DNA from: an uncultured Bacteroidales bacterium
GTDB taxonomy: Bacteria > Bacteroidota > Bacteroidia > Bacteroidales > UBA932
Assembly: GCA_947302175.1 (NCBI GenBank)
Contig: CAMYVB010000009.1
Span: forward strand, 1 to 64,000
Direction of reading: 5' to 3'
Length of the DNA stretch: 64,000 nt
The notes under the pieces were generated by a model. The model had not been told where the DNA came from and made no database searches. It saw only the letters and a program-made list of their open reading frames with translations. Made by a program: the position numbers and the translations under genes. Below are positions 9,187 through 64,000 of the stretch, piece by piece (position 1 is the first letter of the stretch; each line of letters begins with the position of its first letter).

Positions 9187-9999
9187 TTATTCAGCAGTGG
9201 GATCCACTATGATGCGGCCGCAGTGCTCGCAGATAACGAGCTTGTTGCCGCTGGAAATCTCTATCAGACGCTGAGGAGTGATGGTGTTGAAGCAGCCGCC
9301 GCAGGAGTCGCCGTCGAAAATGGGGACTACTGCGAGGTGGTTGTGGACGCTGGCGCGAATGCGCTCGTAGGCGCTCATGGTGCGCTTGTCGATCTTGGAG
9401 GCGAGGCTGTCCCTGCGGGCGCGGAGCTTCTCCTCTTCGCCGGAGGTGGAAGAAACGATGCCTTCGAGCTCTTCCTTCTTGGCGGCGAGGTCCTCGGAGC
9501 GGATTTCGAGCATGCGGGTGATGTCCTCGATCTTGGCGCGGCGCTCCTCGATGGCTACGCGGGTGTCGCCGATGTTCTTGACTGCGATCTGGCGCAGGAG
9601 GTCGAGATTCTCGATTTCCTTTTCGAGGGAGTCGTACTCGCGGCTGTTGCTGATATTGTCGAGGCGGGCCTTGTACTCGTCTATCTGGGCGTCGTACTCG
9701 ACGATGTTGTTCTTATTGAGCTCGATGGACTCCTGATAGCCGGCGATCATGGTCTGGGACTTTTCGATCTTGGCCTGCATGGCGGCGACCTCTTCTTCAA
9801 GGGCGGCAACCTCGGCGGGCAGTTCGCCCCTGAGCTGGACTATCTTCTCTATTTCGTTGTCGGAACGCTGGAGTTCGTAGAGTATCCTGACTTTCTCGCG
9901 CACGCCCTCGGCGTCCTCCGCGAAGGATTTCTGCAGGGATACGAAAGTCTCCCTTTCGTCGATGGGAGTCTCGATTTTCTTGGTTTTGCTGGTGGCCAT
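9187..9999 (-). CDS. Coiled-coil protein with C-terminal C4 zinc ribbon (CT398-like)
   Basis: Long coiled coil, then CGGCFNTITPQRL...CEHCGRIIVD. Confidence 0.85.
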   Translation of the reverse strand: MATSKTKKIETPIDERETFVSLQKSFAEDAEGVREKVRILYELQRSDNEIEKIVQLRGELPAEVAALEEEVAAMQAKIEKSQTMIAGYQESIELNKNNIVEYDAQIDEYKARLDNISNSREYDSLEKEIENLDLLRQIAVKNIGDTRVAIEERRAKIEDITRMLEIRSEDLAAKKEELEGIVSSTSGEEEKLRARRDSLASKIDKRTMSAYERIRASVHNHLAVVPIFDGDSCGGCFNTITPQRLIEISSGNKLVICEHCGRIIVDPTAE

Positions 10000-10005
10000 A
10001 TGTAT

Positions 10006-10788
10006 CTAGATATATTTTATCGGGTTACTGTCTTGCAGCGCCTTGCTGACATGAACGGCAAAGTTAGGAAATTTTTTCCGTAAGTGGGAAAATAAAACAT
10101 CCACAATCTCAACTTCGCTCTCAAAATGACCGATATCGGCGACGGCGAAGCCGGGGGCGGTGAAAAAATGGTGGTACGACACGTCGCCGCAAAGGTAGAG
10201 CTGGGCGCCTGCAGCGCGGGCAGCGTCCATGAGCGACTGCCCCGACCCGCCGCACATTGCGATGCGGCTGACGGGGACGCCGGGGTCGCGCGAAGCGCGT
10301 ATCATCTTGAGCCCGAAAGCGCTTTTGACGAGCGCGAGGGCCTGCTCGTAGCTAAGGGGAGAAGGAAGGTCGCCTACCATGCCGAGGCCGTAATTCCCGT
10401 CTCCTTCCGGCTCCAGGATGCTGATATTCTGCAGCCCGAGGCGCGAGGCCATTGCACCGCTCACTCCCCCTGGCACCTTATCGGCCGTGGTGTGGGCGGC
10501 ATAAACGGCAACGCCCGCCCTGACCGCCTTGATGATGGTAAGGCCTACAGGATCTTCGGGGGTAATCCTCTTGATGCCGCCGAAAATGAGGGGGTGATGG
10601 GTCACGACCATGTTGCAACCGCTCGCTACCGCCTCGTCCACGAGCTCGGGAGTGCAATCAAAGCCTATCATGACGCCGGAGACTTCCTGAGAGGGAGAGC
10701 CTACGCTCAGGCCGCTGTTGTCCCACTGCTCCTGTATTGAAAGCGGGGCGAACTCTTCGATCGCTGCAGCTATCTGTGAAACCTTCAT
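10006..10788 (-). CDS. Nif3-like dinuclear metal-centre hexameric protein
   Basis: WDNSGLSVGSP, VTHHPLIFGGIKRIT, AAHTTADKVPGGVS motifs. Confidence 0.88.
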   Translation of the reverse strand: MKVSQIAAAIEEFAPLSIQEQWDNSGLSVGSPSQEVSGVMIGFDCTPELVDEAVASGCNMVVTHHPLIFGGIKRITPEDPVGLTIIKAVRAGVAVYAAHTTADKVPGGVSGAMASRLGLQNISILEPEGDGNYGLGMVGDLPSPLSYEQALALVKSAFGLKMIRASRDPGVPVSRIAMCGGSGQSLMDAARAAGAQLYLCGDVSYHHFFTAPGFAVADIGHFESEVEIVDVLFSHLRKKFPNFAVHVSKALQDSNPIKYI

Positions 10789-11102
10789 AGTCCTGCCCTC
10801 ACGTCTTCGAGTTTGCGGCGTATTTCCTTCAGGGAATCCAGGACGCGCACTTTGCGGTCCACGGCGCTGCGGTCAGTGGCCATCTGCGCGGCCGCACCGT
10901 CCAGGGTGAGACCCTTGGTCTTAACCAGGTAATGCACCTTTTTCAGCGTTTCGATGTCGTCAGCCGTGTAGAGACGGTTGCCCTTGGCGTTGCGGTTAGG
11001 CTTGATGTATTTGGTGAAGGTGTTGGACCAGTAGCGCACGAGGGAAGTGCTTTCCCCGAGCATCTCGGCGGCTTCGCCAATTGTATAGTAGAGCTTTTCC
11101 AT
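10785..11102 (-). CDS. MerR-family transcriptional regulator
   Basis: YYTIGEAAEMLGESTSLVRYWSNTF...GNRLYTADDIETL winged-helix sequence. Confidence 0.85.
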   Translation of the reverse strand: MEKLYYTIGEAAEMLGESTSLVRYWSNTFTKYIKPNRNAKGNRLYTADDIETLKKVHYLVKTKGLTLDGAAAQMATDRSAVDRKVRVLDSLKEIRRKLEDVRAGL

Positions 11103-11113
11103 ATCGAAAAGGA

Positions 11114-12052
11114 TTAGTCGAGCGATTGACCCGTGTTGACCGACATGTAGAGCATGTTGGTGTACTCGTAGGGGGTGACGGAGGCGAAGAAATGGTGGAC
11201 GGGATCGAGCAGGACTCCGTCGCGGAGCACCTCGTAATGGAGGTGGGGGACAAGCGAATTGCCGCTGGAGCCCACTTCCGCTATCTTGGTGCCGGCCTTG
11301 ACGCTCTGGCCGAGGTGCACCGAAATGTCGCCGAGATGGCAGTAACGGGTCACGTATCCCCCGTCGTGGGTTATTTCCACGACGTTTCCTTCACCCTTGA
11401 AGCTCCTGCGCACCAAGCTCACCCGCCCCGCAGCCGAGGCATAGACTGCGGCGCCCTGGGAGGCGATGATGTCGAGCCCGTCGTGGCGGGCCGTAACCTT
11501 GAGGAAAGGATTCATCTTCTCGCCTATGGAGGCGCCAACCTGCACGTACGACAAGTCAGCAACAGGCATGTAGAGGGGAGGCAGGGACGCCCCGGGAGCG
11601 CAGTATTTCTCGTGAGACGCCTTCATCAGGGAGTCAATTCTGCTTGAAGCGGCGAGCAGGGCGTCCGCCTTGGCGGCGGTGAATTTGACTATTTTCCTGT
11701 CGGGGATGGTATCTGACGAAAGGAAATCGGTCTCGCCCACGGGATCGAGGCCCGGAGCTTCGGCATAGAAGATGTCTTTGTATATCCTTGCATCCTTGAC
11801 CTGGAGGCCGCTCAGCACGGTTTCGACAAGGGCTTCGTCCCTTAGCATGCCGGGGAAAATCTTTTCGTAGAGGCGGTTCTCGCTCTTCATCTGCTTCTCG
11901 CTGTCGGTGCTGACAAGGAGGGCCACAATCGCATAGTAGATGGCGGCGACGAGCACCGAAAGAAGGAAGTACTTCACCACGACGAGCACGAAGCCCCAGA
12001 AGGTGCGGTTCGCCTTCTTGACTGCCGATATGACGTTTCCCTGCCTGCTCAT
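11114..12052 (-). CDS. M23-family (LytM) metallopeptidase
   Basis: HDGLDIIASQGAAVYASAAGRVSLV...GSSGNSLVPHLHYEV. Confidence 0.87.
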   Translation of the reverse strand: MSRQGNVISAVKKANRTFWGFVLVVVKYFLLSVLVAAIYYAIVALLVSTDSEKQMKSENRLYEKIFPGMLRDEALVETVLSGLQVKDARIYKDIFYAEAPGLDPVGETDFLSSDTIPDRKIVKFTAAKADALLAASSRIDSLMKASHEKYCAPGASLPPLYMPVADLSYVQVGASIGEKMNPFLKVTARHDGLDIIASQGAAVYASAAGRVSLVRRSFKGEGNVVEITHDGGYVTRYCHLGDISVHLGQSVKAGTKIAEVGSSGNSLVPHLHYEVLRDGVLLDPVHHFFASVTPYEYTNMLYMSVNTGQSLD

Positions 12053-13062
12053 CTCTTTGTCCTCGCTTTAAAACCGGATTTAAGCATCGCGGGTGATTCC
12101 TCCTCCCGTTTCTGCACCATGGCGGCGTACTCTTCTTTACTCACCGACAGGTCATAGTAGTTGGCGGGGTTGACCTTGTTGCCACGGTAGATGACCTCGT
12201 AATGCAGGTGGTCGCCCGTGGACTTGCCGGTGCGCCCTATGGCTCCTATGCACTGCCCGCGCTTGATTTGCATGCCCTCGGTCACGAAGACCTCGCTCAT
12301 ATGCGCGTACATGGTCTGGTAGCCGAAACCGTGGTCGATCACGACCATGTTGCCATAGCCGAAGAACTGGAACTTCACGGACTCGATTACACCGTCGCCG
12401 GTCGCGTAGATGGGAGTGCCCTTCTTGGCGGCGAAATCCACGCCCATGTGGCGCCTCAGACCGCCGTAAACGGGGTCTGTCCTCACGCCGAAAGTACTGG
12501 AAATACGATAGTTACGCGTATTGGGATCTATGGGGGGGATATTGGGGATGCTGGACGCCATGTCCCCCGCCCTCTTCGAAAGGGCTTCCACTTCGTCGAA
12601 AGACTTCAGCTGGACATAGGTCCTCTTTTTGAGCTCTTCGAGGCGTATGTAGTTCTCCCTGAGGCGGCTGTTGCGGCCTATCTCGGAAAGCACGTCAAAA
12701 TCGCCCTCGTACTCCCCCGCTCCGGTAACGGCGCTCCGGGGAATCTCGGACATACCGAAAATGGAACGGTAGACGTCGCTATTCCTAAGCTCGAGGTCCT
12801 CGAGGATCTCTTCGCAGCGGTCCATATCCCTGGAGAGGACGGCGACCTTCGCGTTCCACGCCGCGTTGGTCTTTTTCAGCAGGGCTGCCTTGGGCGTGTC
12901 GAGACCGAGGAAAATGAAAAGGAACCAGAAATATAGTACCGCCAGGGCGACGCTCGCGAGGAAAATCAAACTGTACCGCACCAGTCTTCTCCTGGGCGGT
13001 TCTGTGGAGATCTCGTACAAGAGAGTCTCCGGATTGATTCTCATATTCGGATTGTCCGGCAT
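12049..13062 (-). CDS. M23-family (LytM) metallopeptidase
   Basis: [24 protein letters not shown]...[17 protein letters not shown]; overlaps the next gene by 4 bp. Confidence 0.9.
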
Positions 13063-13091
13063 AATTGAAGGCTTTAGCCTGGCTCAAGATG

Positions 13092-13099
13092 CAAATATA
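13092..13099 (-). promoter_or_regulatory. Candidate -7 box (TATATTTG) for the M23 pair
   Basis: TATATTTG on the minus strand matches the Bacteroidetes TAnnTTTG consensus, about 30 bp upstream of the CDS. Confidence 0.5.
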
Positions 13100-13121
13100 C
13101 CTCTTTTTTTATTTTTTATGC

Positions 13122-13129
13122 TAATTTTG
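13122..13129 (+). promoter_or_regulatory. Candidate -7 box (TAATTTTG) for alaS
   Basis: TAATTTTG, 27 bp upstream of the alaS ATG. Confidence 0.5.
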
Positions 13130-13156
13130 CAGGTTCGCTTGAAAATCAGAACGACT

Positions 13157-15787
13157 ATGACATCGAAAGAAATACGCCGGAAGTTCCTGGACTTCTTCGC
13201 CTCCAAAGGCCACACTATCGTCCCTTCAGCCCCCATGGTGGTCAAGAACGACCCCACGCTCATGTTCACCAACGCGGGGATGAACCAGTTCAAAGATTAT
13301 TTCCTCGGCAACGCCACTCCCCCCTTCAAGCGCGCCACCGACTCCCAGAAGTGCCTCCGCGTCAGCGGCAAGCACAACGATCTCGAGGAAGTGGGCCACG
13401 ACACCTACCACCACACGATGTTCGAAATGCTGGGCAACTGGAGTTTCGGCGACTACTTCAAGGCCGAAGCTATTGACTGGGCCTGGGAGCTCCTCACCGA
13501 AGTCTACAAGATAGACAAGAGCCTGCTCTACGCCACCGTATTCGAAGGCGCCGCCGAAGACGGCACGACCCTCGACACCGAGGCTCAGGAAGCCTGGCGC
13601 AAATACCTCCCCGAGGACCACATACTCCTCGGCAACAAGCACGACAATTTCTGGGAAATGGGCGACACCGGCCCCTGCGGTCCCTGCTCTGAAATCCACA
13701 TCGACATCCGCACCCCCGAGGAGAAAGCCGCTAGCGGCATCCCCGGCCGCGAGCTCGTCAACAAGAGCGACCCCCACGTCATAGAAATCTGGAACCTGGT
13801 CTTCATGCAGTTCCAGCGCTTCGCCGACGGCCATCTTGAGCCCCTCCCCGCCAAGAACATCGACACCGGCATGGGCTTCGAGCGCCTCTGCGCCGTTCTC
13901 CAGGGCAAGAATTCCAACTACGACTCCGACGTCTTCACCGGCATGCTCGGCCGCATCGAAGAGTTCAGCGGTCACAAGTACGGCGAAAGCGCCGAGACAG
14001 ACGTCGCCATGAGGGTCATCGCCGACCATATCCGCACAATCGGCTTCTCCATCGCCGACGGCCAGCTCCCCGGCAACGTCAAGGCCGGCTACGTCATCCG
14101 CAGGATCCTTCGCCGCGCCGTTCGCTACGGCTACACCTTCCTCGGTTTCACCGAGCCCTTCCTCTGCCGCCTCGTGCCCCAGCTCCTGTCCGACATGGGC
14201 GAAGCCTATCCCGAGCTCGTCGCCCAGAGCAAGCTTATCGAGAGCGTCATACGCGAAGAGGAAGTTGCGTTCCTCAAGACCCTCGACCGCGGCATCAGCC
14301 TGATGGACGAGTATATGAAGCGTTCGAAAGACACACGCGTAATCGCAGGCCCCGACGCCTTCAAGCTCTACGACACCTACGGATTCCCCATAGACTTGAC
14401 GCAGCTCATCGCCTCCGAGCACGGATTCACCGTCGACCTCGAGGGCTTCAACGTGGAGCTCCAGAAGCAGAAGGACCGCGCCCGCGGCGCCACCGCCAAC
14501 GAGTTCGGCGACTGGGCCGAGTTCCACCCCGGCAAGTGCGAATTCACCGGCTACGACTCCACCACCGTCGAGGGCGCCCTGCTCCTCAAGCAGCGCACCG
14601 TCAAGCAGAAGAATAAGGAAATGCTCCAGCTCGTCTTCGACCGCACCCCCTTCTACGGCGAAATGGGCGGCGAAATAGGTGACACCGGCACCATCACCTC
14701 CGCCTCCGGCGAAACCATCAGGATACTCAACACCATCAAGGAGAACGACCTGACCATACACGTTGCCGAGCGCTTCCCCGCAGACCCCGAAGGCACTTTC
14801 ACCCTCAGCGTCGACGCCGCCCGCAGGCAGAAGATAGCCAATAACCACAGCTGCACCCACCTGATGCACCAGGCCCTCCGCGAAATCCTCGGCACCCACG
14901 TCGAGCAGAAAGGTTCGTACGTCACCGACAAGGCCCTGCGCTTCGATTTCTCCCACTTCGAGAAGCTCTCCGACGAGCAGATCGCAGCCGTCGAGCGCCG
15001 CGTCAACACCCTCATCCGCGAGAACATCGCCCTTCGCGAAAAGAGGGACGCCACCATGGACGAGGCCCGCGAAATGGGCGCCATGGCCCTCTTCGGCGAA
15101 AAGTACGGCGACAAGGTCCGCGTCGTCAGCTTCGGCCCCAGCGTTGAGCTCTGCGGCGGCTGCCACACTTCCGCCACCGGCAACATAGGTCTTTTCAAAA
15201 TCCTTAGCGAAGGCGCCATAGCAGCTGGCGTGCGCCGCATCGAAGCCATCACCGGCGAAGAGGCGGAAGAGTTCGTGCTCAATCTCCAGGGAATGATGCG
15301 CGACGCCCGCGCCTTCTTCAACAACGCCCCCGACCTCGGCGGCGCAATACGCAAGATGATAGACGAGAACGCCGTCTACAAGAAGCAGGCTGAGGAGTTC
15401 GCAAAGCAGAAAGCCGCGCAGCTCGCCCGCACCCTCGCCGACAAGGCCCGGGAAATCAACGGCGTCAAGGTAATCGTCGTAAGCGACTCTGCCCTCAGCG
15501 GCGCCGATCCCGCAATGCTTCGCAACGCAGCCCTCACCCTCCAGAAAGAGCTCAAGGGCACGGCCCTTATCGCAGCATACGAATTCGAAGGCAAGCCTCA
15601 GCTTATGCTCATGTACTCCGACGACCTCGTCGAGGCAGGCCGCAACGCCGGCAAGGACATACGCGAAGGCGCCAAGTTCATCCAGGGCGGCGGCGGCGGC
15701 CAGAGCGGTCTCGCCACTGCCGGCGGCAAGAATGTTGCAGGTCTGAAGGACGCACTCGAAGCTCTCAAGGAAGTAGCCACGAAGTAA
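13157..15787 (+). CDS. alaS: Alanyl-tRNA synthetase
   Basis: [28 protein letters not shown]...[20 protein letters not shown]-terminal DHHA1. ATG at 13157 chosen over the ORF-track start. Confidence 0.96.
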
Positions 15788-57027: not shown

Positions 57028-57063
57028 GAAAACCGCCCCAGGAAATCCTGAGGCGGTTTTTTG
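57028..57063 (+). terminator. Rho-independent terminator at the chromosome/element junction
   Basis: AAAACCGCCcCAGGA-aa-TCCTGaGGCGGTTTTTT. Confidence 0.85.
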
Positions 57064-57185
57064 TGGAGATAGTCGGACCAAAACCCGGGAAATAGTGCGT
57101 AATACTTTACGATATAACCGCCTGTAAATCAGCGCTAAAGTATCTTTTTGCCAATAGTACGGAATATTTGGTAATACAAAAAATA

Positions 57186-57210
57186 GTGCGTAAATTTGGT
57201 GCGTAAATTT
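57186..57210 (+). repeat. 12-bp direct repeat GTGCGTAAATTT x2; related AATAGTGCGTAA also at 57091
   Basis: GTGCGTAAATTT at 57186-57197 and 57199-57210; AATAGTGCGTAA at 57091-57102 and 57182-57193. Confidence 0.85.
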
Positions 57211-57243
57211 TGGGCGAAGGGAAGGAAAGCAAAAAACCGCAGC

Positions 57244-57251
57244 TATTTTTG
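57244..57251 (+). promoter_or_regulatory. Candidate -7 box (TATTTTTG) for integrase
   Basis: Matches TAnnTTTG about 54 bp upstream of the integrase ATG. Confidence 0.3.
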
Positions 57252-57304
57252 GGGCCTGCATTTTTTGCATTTTCTACACAAAGCCCGCAAACGCTAGTAG
57301 ACAA

Positions 57305-58624
57305 ATGACAGGTTTTTATCTAGAGAAAAGGGCCGACAAAAAAGGGGACTGCCCTATTAGAGTTTCTGCCCGGGCCGCTGGCGGCCGTTTGCTTACCTCA
57401 ATAGGCTATAGCATCAATCCCGATAATTGGGACAGCGAAGCCCAGCAAGTAAAGCCGGGGACCAAAAAGGCCCCTACCACCAACGCCCGGGGAATCCCGG
57501 CCGCCACTATTAACGCCCGAATTGCGGCTATTTCGGCCGCCTTCGCCCAGCTGGAAGCAACCCCCGGGGCCTGCACTATTGAAGCCCTACAGGCTGCGCT
57601 AGATGCTATTACAGGGAAGGCCGACAGGAAGGCCGCCGCCCGGCCTATTCAATCAATTGTGCTAACCTACTTTGATTTGTGGGTAAAAGAGGAAAGCACC
57701 CAAAACCAATGGGCCGCTAGCACTACAGCCAAAATGCAGTCCTTTAGAAATTCCCTAGAGGAATTCAAGCCCGATTTGGCATTTTCCGACCTCAACGAAA
57801 AGGGCCTAGCACGATATATTGAATTCCTGCGCAGCAAAAAGGACCACGAAGAAACTAGCATACAAAAGCGCTATAGCAATCTAAAGTGGTTTATAGATTG
57901 GGCTATACGCAAAGGCTACTGCGCAGAAACCGCTATAGATACCTACCGCCCCAAATTCAAAGTATTGGCAAAGCCTGTAATCTTTTTGACACGCCCGGAA
58001 TTGCTCAAACTCTATCACTATGAAATCCCGGCTACGCCCTGCGAAATGACTTTGACATACAGCACAGGGGAGCAATACACAAAGCCTGTGCAATACGCCG
58101 GGGCGCTGGAAAAGGCCCGGGACCTGTTTTGTTTCTGCGCCTTCACTAGCCTTCGCTATTCCGATATGGCAGCACTAAAGCGCAGCGACATAGTAGGGGA
58201 CAAAATCATAGTAACCACCCAAAAGACCAATGACCGCCTAGAAATCCCCCTCAATGACTACAGCCGGGCAATACTAGACAAATACGCCGATTTGCAGGAC
58301 CCCCGGGGGCTGGCCCTTCCTGTCATATCCAACCAAAAAATGAATGACTACCTAAAGGACCTTTGCGAACTCTGCGACTTTAGGGACCCTGTAACAAAGG
58401 TATTCTACAAAGGCGGGGCCCGCGTTGAGGAAACCCACGAAAAATGGGAACTAATCAGCACCCACGCCGCCCGCCGCACCTTCATTTGCTACGCCCTTAC
58501 AAAAGGAATCCCGCCGCAAATTGTTATGAAATTCACAGGGCACAGCGACTACAAAGCTATGAAGCCCTACATAGATATAGCCGGGGCCGATGCCGCCGCC
58601 GCTATGCAGTTAATGAATGACTAG
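57305..58624 (+). CDS. Tyrosine recombinase/integrase
   Basis: R (FTSLRYSDMAALKRSDI), HxxR (STHAARRTFICYAL), GHSDYKAMKPYIDI; SAM-like N-terminal core-binding domain. Confidence 0.93.
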   Translation: MTGFYLEKRADKKGDCPIRVSARAAGGRLLTSIGYSINPDNWDSEAQQVKPGTKKAPTTNARGIPAATINARIAAISAAFAQLEATPGACTIEALQAALDAITGKADRKAAARPIQSIVLTYFDLWVKEESTQNQWAASTTAKMQSFRNSLEEFKPDLAFSDLNEKGLARYIEFLRSKKDHEETSIQKRYSNLKWFIDWAIRKGYCAETAIDTYRPKFKVLAKPVIFLTRPELLKLYHYEIPATPCEMTLTYSTGEQYTKPVQYAGALEKARDLFCFCAFTSLRYSDMAALKRSDIVGDKIIVTTQKTNDRLEIPLNDYSRAILDKYADLQDPRGLALPVISNQKMNDYLKDLCELCDFRDPVTKVFYKGGARVEETHEKWELISTHAARRTFICYALTKGIPPQIVMKFTGHSDYKAMKPYIDIAGADAAAAMQLMND

Positions 58625-58640
58625 CACAGGGGGAAGGACT

Positions 58641-59102
58641 ATGAAGCACACGCCGACACTACAGGAAGCAATCTATATTGAAGGCCTGCCCGATTGGTAC
58701 ATAAGCGACACCCCGGCCGATTTTTGGACCCGGGAAGCCTTCGCCCTGTTTGAAGCCGCCCGGCAGGAAGGGCTAATAGATTTTGATAGCACCTACAGCG
58801 ACAGCTGGACCGCTGGCCCCAATATCCCCAAAGGGGCGCTAGCGTATTTTTGCCAAAAGGCTAGTAGATGCCTACACCTCAACAAAGGGGCCCACACCAA
58901 TTGGAAGCCCTTTGAAAGAATGTTTAACCGGGGCAGCCTGTGCTGGCCGGAATCCGACACCACAGGGCAGGCCCAGCCGGAACTGCGCCCAGCCGCGCCG
59001 CTGCGCCTGTCCCTGCATAACCTAGAGGAAAGCGCCGGGCAGGAAGCGCTGCGCAGCCGTATAGATGACTTTTTCACACGATATGAAAACGGAAATAGCT
59101 AA
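58641..59102 (+). CDS. Hypothetical protein of the element
   Basis: MKHTPTLQEAIYIEGLPDWYISDTPADFWTREAF...; element-like codon usage. Confidence 0.6.
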   Translation: MKHTPTLQEAIYIEGLPDWYISDTPADFWTREAFALFEAARQEGLIDFDSTYSDSWTAGPNIPKGALAYFCQKASRCLHLNKGAHTNWKPFERMFNRGSLCWPESDTTGQAQPELRPAAPLRLSLHNLEESAGQEALRSRIDDFFTRYENGNS

Positions 59103-59682
59103 AGCCCTTCCCGCCTTCCCCTGTGCTGCCCAGCTGGCCCCGGGACACCGGGCCGCCGATGCTGGCCGACCTCAACGCCGACAGCTGGCCGGGGCATCTA
59201 CTACAGGGCAGGGCGCAGGGAGCCCAGCCGGAACGCCGCCGGAATCCCCCGGGCAGGCCCAGCTGGCGCTGCCACCTCAAAAGACACAGGCCGCCGGAAC
59301 ACAGCCCAGCGCCGGGGCCGCCTTCCCCGCCTTCGCCCTGTATAGCGTTGAGGGGAGCAAAGGGCCGGGCATCAATACTACTACAATGAAAGACACCCGC
59401 CACAGCACCGCCTGCCCAGCGCAGCACACAGGGAGCCCAGCCGCCCAGCTGGCCGCCGCGCCTGTAGTCAATATCTATTTGACAGGCTGCAATATCAATA
59501 ACGGCCGGAATCAAATAGTAGGGAATCATAACACCCAAATTGGACATAACGCCTACGGCCCGGCCGACCTGTCCCAATGGCAGGCCGAAACAATCCGGGC
59601 ACAGGCCGCCACCATAGCCGCCCAGCAAAGGACCATAGACCGCCTAATAACGATACTAGAGGGAAGGACCGCCGGGGCCTAG
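59083..59682 (+). CDS. Hypothetical element protein; C-terminal coiled coil; start uncertain (59083 or 59387)
   Basis: C-terminal VVNIYLTGCNINNGRNQIVGNHNTQIGHNAYGPADLSQWQAETIRAQAATIAAQQRTIDRLITILEG; 5' part is repeat-rich low-complexity sequence. Confidence 0.45.
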   Translation: MKTEIAKALPAFPCAAQLAPGHRAADAGRPQRRQLAGASTTGQGAGSPAGTPPESPGQAQLALPPQKTQAAGTQPSAGAAFPAFALYSVEGSKGPGINTTTMKDTRHSTACPAQHTGSPAAQLAAAPVVNIYLTGCNINNGRNQIVGNHNTQIGHNAYGPADLSQWQAETIRAQAATIAAQQRTIDRLITILEGRTAGA

Positions 59683-59836
59683 CCTTCGCGCCCGCGCCTG
59701 CGCCTGTGAATGTTTCGCTTGTATAGCTAAAGCCCTACAGCCGTTGAGGTATGCAGGGCTTTATTTTGCTTTCAAGATACTTATTTTGCCGCCCTGTAGC
59801 GGCCTGTATTGGGCTTTGTATACTATATCTAACAGC

Positions 59837-59846
59837 CTGTATACAG
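59837..59846. promoter_or_regulatory. Perfect palindrome CTGTATACAG upstream of 59879
   Basis: 10-bp palindrome; GTATAC also at 59818-59823 and 60329-60334. Confidence 0.35.
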
Positions 59847-59878
59847 CCTGCCCCGATACTTTGAAATACCTTTGCGAT

Positions 59879-60202
59879 ATGGAACGCACAGGGACACCAC
59901 AGCCGGACCGCTGGCCGGACCTAGACACAGCCCCGCCGCTGGACATAACGGACAGCCCGCCGCTAGACATAACGGACAGCCCGCCGCTAGACCTCAACGC
60001 CGACAGCTGGCCCGCGCTGGACCTGTCCCACAGCTGGCCGGGAATAGAGCCCCCGGACCGCTGGCAGCCGCTGGACATAACGGACAGCCCACCGCTAGAC
60101 CTCAACAGCGAAAAGGGGCGCAGGAAGGCCGAAAAGCAACGGACCGGGGAAACCCTCAACGCCCAGCCAAAACGCCCTAGAAACGGCCGGAAACGGCCCT
60201 AG
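59879..60202 (+). CDS. Hypothetical repeat protein (DITDSPPLD units)
   Basis: MERTGTPQPDRWPDLDTAPPLDITDSPPLDITDSPPLDLNADSWPALDLSHSWPG...; preceded by TACCTTTG. Confidence 0.4.
   Translation: MERTGTPQPDRWPDLDTAPPLDITDSPPLDITDSPPLDLNADSWPALDLSHSWPGIEPPDRWQPLDITDSPPLDLNSEKGRRKAEKQRTGETLNAQPKRPRNGRKRP
59939..60094 (+). repeat. 24-bp repeats ct(g/a)gacataacggacagccc(g/a)ccg: two tandem copies and one distal copy
   Basis: 59939-59962, 59963-59986 and 60071-60094. Confidence 0.9.
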
Positions 60203-60326
60203 AACAAAGACAGGAACACAGGCCGCCGGGAGCCAATGACCGCGAAGGAAAAAAGCTAGAGAAACCCGAAGCGCAGGCACACGCCCGGCGGCTTTTTACA
60301 ACGCCAAAACCTCAAATAGATTTGAT

Positions 60327-60644
60327 ATGTATACACAGGAAATCACACCCGAAACGCCTTTAGTGCAAATGACCGCCGGGCAGCTGGCCGAATACCTCAA
60401 CAGCCGGGCGCAGGGAGCCCAGCCGGGCACAGGAACACAGGCCGCCGGGGCCGCCCAGCCCCGCCGCTTTGTCTATGGATTGCGGGGCATTATGCAGCTA
60501 TTCAATGTTTCCAATGTTACCGCCCAGCGCTACAAAAGGGGCATCATAAAAGATGCCGTTTCCCAACAGGGCAAAATCATAGTAGTAGATGCCGACAAAG
60601 CCCTACAGCTATTCAAAGAATGGAAGGATAGCAAAGGGGAATAA
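60327..60644 (+). CDS. DUF3853-like DNA-binding protein
   Basis: FVYGLRGIMQLFNVSNVTAQRYKRGIIKDAVSQQGKIIVVDADKALQLFKEWK. Confidence 0.75.
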   Translation: MYTQEITPETPLVQMTAGQLAEYLNSRAQGAQPGTGTQAAGAAQPRRFVYGLRGIMQLFNVSNVTAQRYKRGIIKDAVSQQGKIIVVDADKALQLFKEWKDSKGE

Positions 60645-60765
60645 TGAAGGCAGCCGCGCACAGCAATAGCTGTAGCAACGGCCGCCCCGCTAGTAGACGG
60701 ACAAATATAGCGCTTTTTTGCGACTTATGGGCCGCCGCTGGCGTAATCTTTAGCCGTATTGAGAA

Positions 60766-62229
60766 ATGACACCTAACAAAGAATTTGCGGCCCAGCTGGC
60801 GCAGGATATAGCGGCCCGGGGGGAAGCGCTGGAAACCCAGCCCGGACCCTTCGCGCCGGAACTGCAGGGCATCATTGACAGCCTAGAGCCTTTGAATTTC
60901 CGGGAACTAGCCGGGGCGAAGGCCAATGAAAAGCTAAAGCACAGCGAAACGCTAGTATTGGCTGTGCGGGAATTGCTCAAAATAGTAGAAACCGCCGGGG
61001 CTGGATTAACAGCCCAAAACGGCCTGCCCTTTGTCTATAACGGCCGATATTGGCAGGAAACTAGCCCGGGAGAAATTGAAGCCTTTTTGACAGCCGCAGC
61101 TATCAAAATGGGCATAGATGAACTAACGGCCGAATACTTTGAAAATCAAGAAAAGCTATACAAGCAATTCCTAAAGACTGCCCGACTACGGGCGCAGCGC
61201 CGGGACCGGGGCAAAATCCTTATCAATTTCCCCAATGGGACACTAGAGATAACACAGGCCGGGCGCTGGCATTTGAGGGAACACCGCCGGGCCGACTTTA
61301 TCAAATATGAATTGCCCTACAGCTATGATGCTACCGCCACCACCTGCCCGCTATTTACGGCCTACCTCAACAAAGTACAGCCCGACAGGGCAGCGCAGGC
61401 TGTGCTGGCCGAATTCGTAGGGAACGCCCTAGCGCCCGAATTGAAGCTACAAAAAGCCCTAGTTTTGAACGGCCCGGGCAGCAACGGAAAAAGCGTATTT
61501 TGCGACATTATAACGGCCGTATTGGGCCGGGAAAATGTAAGTAGCTACACAATGGAAAGCCTAACAAAGTCGGACAGCCGCAGCTGCGCCCAGCTGGAAA
61601 ACAAGCTACTTAACTACTCTAGCGAAAACTCTATCAAAATGAATGTTGAGGCCTTCAAAACGCTAGTTTGTGGGGAGCCTATAGAGGTACGCCGCTTGTA
61701 TGGGGAATCCTACCAAATTGAAGGCTACGCAAAACTAATGTTCAATTGTAACCTACTGCCCCGGGACATAGAGCAAAGCGAAGGCTTTTTTAGGCGCTTC
61801 CTTATAATCCCCTTCACTACCAAAATTGAGGAATCCGAAAAGGACCCCGAATTAGCGGCCAAAATCATAGCGCAGGAACTGCCCGCCGTATTCAATTGGG
61901 TATTGCAGGGGCTGCGCAGGCTACTACAGGCAAAGGCCTTCACGCCCTGCGACACAGCCCGGGAAGCGCTGGAAGCCTACAGGAAGGAATCTAACAGCGT
62001 TTTAATGTTCATTGAGGAATACGGCCTAGAGCCGGGGAGCCCAGCCGACCGGGAAGCCCTCAAAGACCTATACAACGCTTACAATTTCTATTGCAAAAGT
62101 AGTGGCTACTACCCTATGGGCAAAAGCACCTTCAATAAGCAAATGCAGGCACAGGGCTTTAGCGGGGGCCGGGACAGCAAAGGAATGTATCTAGCCTGTA
62201 AGGGCTTTGCCGATGCCGACAGGATTTGA
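60766..62229 (+). CDS. P4/D5-type SF3 helicase / DNA primase family protein
   Basis: Walker A LNGPGSNGKSVFCDII; LLNYSSENS; KLMFNCNLLPRD; FFRRFLIIPF. Confidence 0.9.
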   Translation: MTPNKEFAAQLAQDIAARGEALETQPGPFAPELQGIIDSLEPLNFRELAGAKANEKLKHSETLVLAVRELLKIVETAGAGLTAQNGLPFVYNGRYWQETSPGEIEAFLTAAAIKMGIDELTAEYFENQEKLYKQFLKTARLRAQRRDRGKILINFPNGTLEITQAGRWHLREHRRADFIKYELPYSYDATATTCPLFTAYLNKVQPDRAAQAVLAEFVGNALAPELKLQKALVLNGPGSNGKSVFCDIITAVLGRENVSSYTMESLTKSDSRSCAQLENKLLNYSSENSIKMNVEAFKTLVCGEPIEVRRLYGESYQIEGYAKLMFNCNLLPRDIEQSEGFFRRFLIIPFTTKIEESEKDPELAAKIIAQELPAVFNWVLQGLRRLLQAKAFTPCDTAREALEAYRKESNSVLMFIEEYGLEPGSPADREALKDLYNAYNFYCKSSGYYPMGKSTFNKQMQAQGFSGGRDSKGMYLACKGFADADRI

Positions 62230-62256
62230 AGCCTACCCCCCGGGGGTATTTTTTTA
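62230..62256 (+). terminator. Rho-independent terminator after the helicase gene
   Basis: TACCCCCCGGGGGTATTTTTTT. Confidence 0.7.
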
Positions 62257-62413
62257 AAGGGGTAGGGGTCCCCTAAACCTCGACCACAGCCCCGCCCGCC
62301 GCTATGCAATTTTTTGGATTTGCGGAACTTTTCGCCAAATAGTTACAATTTATTACATTTTTCGGCCAAAAACTTACGCTTTTTAATGCCGGTACAGCTC
62401 AAAATCTTACAAA

Positions 62414-63433
62414 TTGAAAGCAACGCACCGCTACATATTGGAGCCCTACACAGGGCCGGACAGCCGCCACGCCTGCCCCCAATGTGGGAAGGCCGGGGCC
62501 TTCGCCCGCTACATAGACAGCACCACCGGGGAAGCGCTGGCCGACAATGTGGGCCGATGCAACCGCGAAGATAGTTGCGGCTACCACTACAAACCGGGGC
62601 AATTTTTCAAAGATAATCCCGACAAAGGGCAGCCCTTTACGCCTGTAAAACGGACCAAAACCCGGCCGATAGTGCGGGAATGGAAGCCCGCCCCGCCGCC
62701 GGAATCCTACACAATCCCGGGCGCTGTCCTCAACGCCTTTTTTCGCTTTGAAAAGGAAGCCGACCAAAAGCGCCTGCGCACCCAGCGCCGGGCAGGGCCC
62801 ACAAACCTAGATTTATACCTGTGCAAAGTATTGGGGCCGGACCGCTATAGGGCTGTGCGCAAAGCCTACCACCTCAAAAGATACAGGGGCGCAGCTGTCT
62901 TTGTCTACTGCGACCGGGAAGGCCGCTATAGGACTATGAAACGAATCTACTACAAAGAGAATGGACACCGGGACAAAGACACCCAGCCGACACTACTACA
63001 CACCCACGAAAATATAAAGCCCTACCTTCCCGAAGGCTGGACCCTGCGCCGCTGTCTATTTGGGGAGCATCTACTACAGGGCAGCCCAGCCGCCCCTGTG
63101 GCGCTAGTGGAAAGCGAAAAAACGGCCCTAATTGGGGCCGCCCTGTGCCCGGGCCCTGTATGGCTAGCTGTAGGGGGCAAACAATGGCTAAACGCCGACA
63201 CCTGCGCAGCGTTGAGGGGCCGCCGCGTAGTAGCCTACCCCGATTTGCAAGCCTTCGCCCTGTGGCAGCACACGCTGGCCGACATAGCCCGCCGCGTAGG
63301 TTTTGCCGTTGAGGTTTCCGACATTTTGGAACGCACAGCAACAGCGCAGGAACGCGCCGCCGGGCTGGACATAGCCGACTATCTAATAAAGGCCGACAGG
63401 GGCCCGGAAACGGCCGGGGATAGCATCATATAG
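62414..63433 (+). CDS. Primase-like protein with N-terminal zinc finger and toprim-like region (DUF6371-like); TTG start
   Basis: CPQCGKAGAFARYID...GRCNREDSCGYHYKPGQFF; VALVESEKTALIGA; GRRVVAYPDLQAF. Confidence 0.75.
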   Translation: MKATHRYILEPYTGPDSRHACPQCGKAGAFARYIDSTTGEALADNVGRCNREDSCGYHYKPGQFFKDNPDKGQPFTPVKRTKTRPIVREWKPAPPPESYTIPGAVLNAFFRFEKEADQKRLRTQRRAGPTNLDLYLCKVLGPDRYRAVRKAYHLKRYRGAAVFVYCDREGRYRTMKRIYYKENGHRDKDTQPTLLHTHENIKPYLPEGWTLRRCLFGEHLLQGSPAAPVALVESEKTALIGAALCPGPVWLAVGGKQWLNADTCAALRGRRVVAYPDLQAFALWQHTLADIARRVGFAVEVSDILERTATAQERAAGLDIADYLIKADRGPETAGDSII

Positions 63434-63456
63434 GGAAGCATCAAACCACCTCAACA

Positions 63457-63747
63457 ATGAATAGCGAATACTACGAAATCAAAGAAATTGCCCAGCTGGA
63501 GCAATCAGCCTATGACGGCCGGACAGGGGAACTATTGGCAAAGCGCTTTGAAAGGCTGTTGAAGCGACAGCACAGCGAAATAGCGCAGTATAAGGGCCTG
63601 CGCCGGGACCTAGACCGCCTTCCACCCGGACCCACCCGGGAAGCAATAGCGGCCAAAATCCGGGCATTTACGGCCGACCACGCCCGCCGTATAGAACGCT
63701 ACGCCACTAAACTAGTTGAGGAATCCCACCCGGCCGGGAAGGGATAG
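63457..63747 (+). CDS. Small hypothetical element protein
   Basis: MNSEYYEIKEIAQLEQSAYDGRTGELLAKRFERLLKRQHSEIAQYK...; helical, charged; element-like codon usage. Confidence 0.55.
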   Translation: MNSEYYEIKEIAQLEQSAYDGRTGELLAKRFERLLKRQHSEIAQYKGLRRDLDRLPPGPTREAIAAKIRAFTADHARRIERYATKLVEESHPAGKG

Positions 63748-63882
63748 CCGCCCAGCTGGACACCTCAACACCCCAACAGGCCGGGCGCTGGCGCTAGCTG
63801 GCGGCCCGCCTTTGTTCTATCCCACAGGGAGCCCAGCCGACAGGGGCCGACCTCAACGGCCGACAGCTGGCCGGAATCCTTC

Positions 63883-63962
63883 ACGCGCGCGCAATTGGGC
63901 GAATTGGGCGAATTGAGCCCAGCCGCCCAGCTGGCCGGGGCCTTCGCGCCTACGCGCGCGCA
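63883..63962. repeat. ACGCGCGCGCA direct repeats flanking AATTGGGCG iteron-like repeats
   Basis: ACGCGCGCGCA at 63883-63893 and 63952-63962; AATTGGGCG at 63893-63901 and 63902-63910, degenerate third copy 63911-63919. Confidence 0.85.
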
Positions 63963-64000
63963 GTAAGTCGGAAATGTGGGGCAGGGCCAAACACACAGGC

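Follow-up and report, generated by a model that had tools for sequence, protein, structure and literature searches.

A small integrated element next to a tRNA gene

We analysed a 64,000-nt stretch of DNA (the window; contig CAMYVB010000009.1, positions 1 to 64,000) from an uncultured Bacteroidales bacterium. Near its end lies a complete integrated element of 7.3 kb (∼57,062–64,380), in which many short DNA words are nearly or fully absent. The right end of the element falls outside the window, on the 647 bases by which the contig runs on. The features of the element are listed here; L005 denotes its closest relative, described below.

57062..57078, no strand: attL-like remnant of the 3' end of tRNA-Ala, TGGAGATAGTCGGA, at the left element end
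57080..64000, no strand, continuing to ∼64,380 past the window: restricted-vocabulary stretch, from counts of 17 avoided words
57089..57212, no strand: terminal repeats GAAATAGTGCGTAAT and AATTTGGTGCGTAAA, left-hand copies, matching those at the right end exactly over 15 bp
57305..58624, plus strand: tyrosine recombinase/integrase, 439 amino acids (aa) (Pfam Phage_integrase, Phage_int_SAM_5 and Arm-DNA-bind_5; PHROG integrase, 4.9e-32)
58617..59102, plus strand: 161-aa protein of unassigned function, an open reading frame (ORF) with an 8-bp overlap with the integrase gene and a homologue in L005 (8113–8583)
59103..60326, no strand: repeat-rich, poorly conserved stretch with dispersed GGGAGCCCAGCCG and GCCCAGCTGGCC repeats, in which the avoided words are also scarce
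60327..60644, plus strand: DUF3853 protein, 105 aa (Pfam PF12964, 6e-16)
60766..62229, plus strand: P4/D5-type primase-helicase, 487 aa, replication protein (Pfam D5_N, DUF5906 and Pox_D5)
62414..63433, plus strand: Zn-ribbon and DUF6371 protein (Pfam PF19898, 7e-37; PF21957, 9e-27)
63457..63747, plus strand: 96-aa helical protein, an ORF with a homologue in L005 (single-sequence model: three helices, mean pLDDT 75)

The right end of the element adjoins a tRNA-Ala(tgc) gene (64,380–64,453, minus strand), the 3' end of which holds TGGAGGTAGTCGGA. A 14-bp core, with one mismatch, is common to this sequence and to TGGAGATAGTCGGA at 57,062. The right copies of GAAATAGTGCGTAAT and AATTTGGTGCGTAAA are found at 64,322–64,348, outside the window, and these terminal repeats are candidate integrase arm sites. 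GC-rich dispersed repeats (GGGAGCCCAGCCG, GCCCAGCTGGCC and GACCTCAACGCCGACAGCTGGCC) cluster in the poorly conserved 59103–60326 and in 63748–64000 (to 64,170), and are possibly a replication origin or packaging repeats.

All genes of the element lie on one strand. The primase-helicase matches the PHROG DNA primase family (3.5e-87) and NCBIfam primase_Cterm (170 bits, cut-off 109), and its best solved-structure relative is the DNA primase in PDB 7ola, presumably a protein of a staphylococcal pathogenicity island. Judging from family assignments, the Zn-ribbon/DUF6371 protein is probably a partner of the primase, and the DUF3853 protein is possibly a DNA-binding regulator. The 161-aa protein matched no family in Pfam, PHROG or NCBIfam searches. 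No capsid gene was found in the element, nor was a capsid-remodelling gene recognised there. A relaxase or mobilisation gene, the mark of an integrative mobilizable element, was likewise missing from the ORFs covered by the same three family searches, and a PADLOC search of five element proteins for defence genes gave no match.

By gene content, then, the element appears to resemble a minimal satellite of the P4/PICMI type. Like P4-like and PICMI phage satellites (PMC10803314, PMC8628076), it is small and encodes an integrase, a P4-type (DUF5906) primase and few other genes. It departs from PICMI in two respects, however. PICMI integrate at fis, whereas this element sits at tRNA-Ala, and the PICMI model includes an AlpA-type regulator (PF05930/PF12728; PMC10803314), whereas the DUF3853 protein gives no AlpA or HTH_17 match.

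Many short words are missing from the element

An earlier note on this sequence had reported, by eye, that 57,301–64,000 lacks GATC, CATG and ACGT and has a single TCGA, although ∼25 occurrences of each would be expected. Exact counts confirm this (0, 0, 0 and 1, the single TCGA being at 62,280), and base composition predicts ∼24 of each. GTAC occurs four times in the same interval. In positions 1–57,000, the counts are 135 for GATC, 245 for CATG, 125 for ACGT, 347 for TCGA, 111 for GTAC and 14 for CTAG. When a maximal-order Markov model is used instead, the deficit in the element holds for GATC (0 versus 8.2 expected, z = −3.4) and CATG (0 versus 9.4, z = −3.7) and is weaker for ACGT (0 versus 3.1, z = −2.0) and TCGA (1 versus 3.5, z = −1.5). 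This null is conservative for the element, because avoidance of further words also lowers the counts of the trinucleotides that make up these four. By the same model, the chromosome is also mildly low in GATC (135 versus 211) and ACGT (125 versus 175).

We also used a synonymous-codon shuffle, which leaves all proteins and the codon usage of the element unchanged; the repeat-rich 59,103–60,326 was left out of these coding tests. GATC (0 versus 12.4 expected), TCGA (0 versus 12.7), CATG (0 versus 7.2) and ACGT (0 versus 4.7) were each as rare in none of 300 shuffles. Across all 136 tetramers, the root-mean-square z is 3.1 for the element and 2.7 for L005, whereas nine similarly sized sets of chromosomal genes give 1.3–1.6. 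Among the 496 pentamers with an expectation of at least 3, 66 are absent from the element and 40 from L005, compared to 0–5 for the chromosomal sets. Thus, recognition-type words are depleted in the element beyond what codon usage and protein constraint account for. Base composition is controlled by the codon shuffle and by a dinucleotide shuffle alike, and an effect of GC content or low complexity is rejected on these grounds.

The missing words are not of one kind. The earlier note had seen the loss as one of 4-bp palindromes, a view that does not survive the codon shuffle: the non-palindromic words CGAG (0 versus 18.5), CTGA (2 versus 26) and CAAG (7 versus 41) are depleted as much or more. 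These are among the most depleted words overall, together with TCGA, GATC, CGCG (7 versus 31), CAGA (4 versus 25), ACTGG (0 versus 13), AGAAG (0 versus 14), GACG (1 versus 15), AGCAG (0 versus 10) and CCAGG (0 versus 19, a conditional expectation that becomes 13 without conditioning). Longer palindromes are affected too: the element lacks 40 of the 64 six-base ones, and chromosomal stretches lack 18–32. Degenerate motifs are discriminated in an enzyme-like manner. CCWGG is absent (0 versus 13) beside an abundance of CCSGG (71 versus 31), and CTNAG (0 versus 7), ACNGT (0 versus 8), CGWCG (0 versus 4) and CASTG (0 versus 5) are also missing.

To count separate words, we picked them one at a time (conditional greedy selection), testing each candidate with shuffles from which the words picked before it were already barred. 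Two independent runs yielded ∼18–20 words at P < 10^−3.4, compared to about two for chromosomal genes. A set of 17 avoided words, counted on both strands, occurs 19 times in 57,081–64,380, versus 334 ± 16 in dinucleotide shuffles; one caveat here is that this set was picked on the same data as counted, the clean test being the held-out one in non-coding DNA described below. In a chromosomal stretch of equal length, the same words occur 582 times versus 562 expected. Their density falls from 25–42 per 500 bp outside to 0–5 in the element and recovers from 64,396. The depletion is thus confined to the element and sharp at its ends.

The constraint acts on duplex DNA

As all genes lie on one strand, an effect at the level of mRNA or translation would be one-sided. 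The depletion of pentamers is instead strand-symmetric: it correlates with that of the reverse complement (r = 0.62) but not with that of the reverse (0.02) or the complement (0.07), and the chromosomal value for the reverse complement is 0.18. It also extends beyond genes. For 26 pentamers picked in coding DNA, the non-coding DNA of the element holds 38 occurrences, versus 123.5 ± 12.3 expected. Strand symmetry and this non-coding reach place the constraint on the DNA duplex and lead us to reject an RNA-level or translational cause.

Within genes, synonymous codon choice in the element follows the neighbouring base. Lysine is encoded by 45 AAA and 3 AAG codons after C, versus 16 AAA and 42 AAG elsewhere. 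None of 41 leucine codons before A is CTG, and all 17 aspartate codons before C are GAC. Codons ending in C never precede methionine in the element (0/21) or in L005 (0/30), compared to 166 of 366 cases in the chromosome.

Lists of avoided words differ between lineages

L005, from the rumen Bacteroidales genome RUG193 (contig ONDF01000038), is a similar element of 7.4 kb with a primase 77% identical. The coordinates of its match and an in-frame TAA equate it with a genome that belongs to the genus of the window's host. RUG193 was the single close relative returned by a genome-contig search and a genus-rich family search. Viral contigs searched with the primase and the DUF6371 protein held no closer relatives, and searches of phage and plasmid DNA matched only 60–125 bp, close to where the integrase gene ends.

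Both elements avoid CATG, ACGT, ACTGG, CTNAG and ACNGT. L005 coding DNA nevertheless holds 42 CCWGG, 21 GATC and 13 CAGCAG. Where the two can be aligned, none of the L005 sites for CCAGG (0/33), AGCAG (0/21) or CTGA (0/20) is kept in the window element, compared to a background retention of 29–36%; at 29%, ∼10 of the 33 CCAGG sites would be expected to remain. The CCAGG replacements comprise 24 transitions and 38 transversions, versus 554 and 710 in the background, and this usual share of transversions is not what deamination of methylated sites would be expected to leave.

More distant relatives have lost other words: GATC alone, GATC and GGCC, or CATG and TCGA. Collectively, these data show that the list of avoided words changes by lineage. 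L005, L032, L025 and L036, all small integrative elements of Bacteroidales, likewise carry the module of integrase, DUF5906 primase-helicase and DUF6371 protein, and some of them also lack GATC, CATG or GGCC. Their word loss is weaker or different, however, and only L005 approaches the window element in absent pentamers. Word loss is a recurrent habit of such elements, of which the window copy is the extreme among those sampled. Other mobile elements of Bacteroidales type (L042–L057 and L074) repeatedly lack GATC, GGCC, CGCG and CCAGG, which suggests common restriction-modification (R-M) specificities in the order.

Several features of the relatives were recorded in passing. The L005 primase gene (9995–11449) is broken by an in-frame TAA (∼11,216), and this copy may be inactive or reflect an assembly error. 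A 45%-identical primase from another genus of the same family (L023, G399:C41:2954-4201) reads through two in-frame TAG codons, possibly a sign of gene decay or of TAG recoding in the element. L005 also encodes an HNH endonuclease (12943–13362), not seen in the window element, for which PHROG lists HNH endonucleases and one terminase small-subunit family. This gene hints at a phage-satellite life style.

Avoided words are enriched for restriction targets

We compared the absent pentamers with 31 Type II, IIS and III 5-bp specificities free of 4-bp palindromes, a non-exhaustive list drawn up after some of the absent words had been seen. Sixteen of the 31 are absent from the element, versus 45 of 418 other words (Fisher P = 1.3e-7; permutation within strata of composition and expectation, P = 2e-4). 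For L005, the corresponding numbers are 12 of 31 and 23 of 418, and none of the listed specificities is absent from chromosomal genes. Several avoided words do not figure on the list. Given the origin of the list, we regard this enrichment for restriction targets as a strong lead. Methylase families are patchy in the genus (C5 in 11, N6_N4 in 19 and N6_Mtase in 21 of 61 genomes).

CTAG and CTA largely as by-products

The earlier note had also pointed to an excess of CTAG, and the raw contrast is real, with 40 occurrences in 57,301–64,000 versus 14 in 1–57,000. Whether CTAG is enriched as such depends on the null: it is not by the maximal-order Markov model (40 versus 48.8), and it is modestly so by codon shuffle (30 versus 19.7). 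The contrast stems largely from the chromosome, which avoids CTAG strongly (14 versus 98 by the Markov model, z = −11). Codon usage differs from that of the host, with CTA making up 0.39 of leucine codons (0.02 in the host) and AGC 0.63 of serine codons (0.32 in the host).

In a neutral codon model, forbidding 28 avoided words raised CTAG from 6 to 26.7, close to the 30 observed in coding DNA. CTA likewise rose from 0.11 to 0.30 of leucine codons, near the observed 0.39. The CTAG excess is thus mostly a by-product of word avoidance and does not require a special donor. We reject CTAG as a donor signature on this basis, and the donor free of CTAG counter-selection that the note had invoked is unneeded.

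Origin of the restricted vocabulary

We think it probable that the element was shaped by long selection for escape from many sequence-specific double-strand DNA nucleases, most likely the R-M systems of successive hosts. The earlier note had proposed restriction avoidance by mobile DNA, and this stands as the best explanation in light of strand symmetry, codon context, non-coding DNA, known specificities and the abrupt att boundary. On each encounter with a new host's R-M systems, any copy from which a synonymous or tolerated change had removed a recognition word would be favoured. Such purges would add up until the ∼18–20 words were nearly or fully absent and a small safe set was left, with use of CTA and CTAG as a side effect. 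The element would have to enter cells as duplex DNA, which transduction or satellite packaging would fit better than single-stranded conjugation, and it may be too small to carry anti-restriction genes. We also propose, tentatively, that a minimal element, lacking space for anti-restriction genes, has evolved a near-general restriction-proof vocabulary, through an additive purge of some twenty or more words; these would include non-palindromic ones, a class regarded as seldom avoided. In that case, the missing words would be a catalogue of specificities in Bacteroidales hosts, several of them undescribed.

Other explanations were weighed against selection by nucleases. A strand-symmetric, context-dependent mutation bias, such as deamination at methylated sites in former hosts, would need no selection and would leave a symmetric pattern in coding and non-coding DNA, as seen here. 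We nevertheless consider it unlikely. Many unrelated words are completely absent, methylation of the GATC type (N6) does not deaminate, and the pattern is found in neither host chromosome; deamination-type mutation in particular is rejected, as the lost CCAGG sites show no excess of transitions. It is also quite unlikely that the element simply retains the ordinary composition of a CTAG-tolerant donor genome, not yet ameliorated. Its foreign codon usage and the CTAG contrast within the window would agree with such an origin, but the depletion persists under a null that preserves the codon usage of the element, a word ban raises CTAG and CTA as a by-product, no sampled host or flank has a comparable missing vocabulary, and a relative from the same genus has a different word list.

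Several avoided cores overlap and are shorter than usual sites (CGAG, GACG, CTGA, CAGA and GAGT), and GAAC/GTTC is depleted (17 versus 38). These observations could point to one non-classical agent whose targets are broad and of low complexity (a nuclease of unknown type, a phosphorothioate-type system or a helper-phage nuclease) in place of many R-M systems. The sharp contrast between CCWGG and CCSGG and the agreement with many distinct known specificities point to several agents, however, and the word lists differ between lineages, so that a single agent seems very unlikely.

Some observations weigh against selection by R-M systems. The CAAG core, CGAG, AGAAG, ATCGC and GCGGA are strongly avoided and yet, to our knowledge, are not common restriction sites. 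The assembly of the present host (86% complete) contains no C5, D12 or N6_Mtase methylase; its N6_N4 methylase match is sub-threshold only, and no cognate enzyme was identified. Most distant relatives show far weaker loss, with ∼20 absent pentamers at most. Furthermore, in a survey of prokaryotic viruses, avoidance was found mainly at orthodox Type II sites; temperate phages showed much less of it, Type I and IIG sites were not avoided and Type III sites rarely so (PMC6286503).

Implications

In phages and plasmids (PMC6286503, PMC10359461), recognition words are likewise depleted relative to codon or Markov expectation, most strongly in small elements. Avoidance of 6-bp targets in plasmids is stronger in small, broad-host ones, with no excess for 4-bp palindromes (PMC10359461, which also cites work by Wilkins et al. 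on restriction-site avoidance in IncP-1 plasmids). Published cases are mainly about a handful of Type II palindromes, and the avoidance in them usually amounts to a weak statistical trend, whereas here it is near-absolute and includes many non-palindromic words. Avoidance has been seen as limited to orthodox Type II sites and as faint in temperate elements that integrate, and the present finding calls this view into question.

With nothing but their sequence, elements of this kind could help to predict restriction specificities that are still unknown, and they could be used to test the limits of word loss under protein constraint. They may also guide the design of reporter DNA entering commensal Bacteroidales that are hard to transform in the laboratory. 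The window element itself preserves an unusually full trace of the DNA-cutting bacterial defences that its ancestors probably met.

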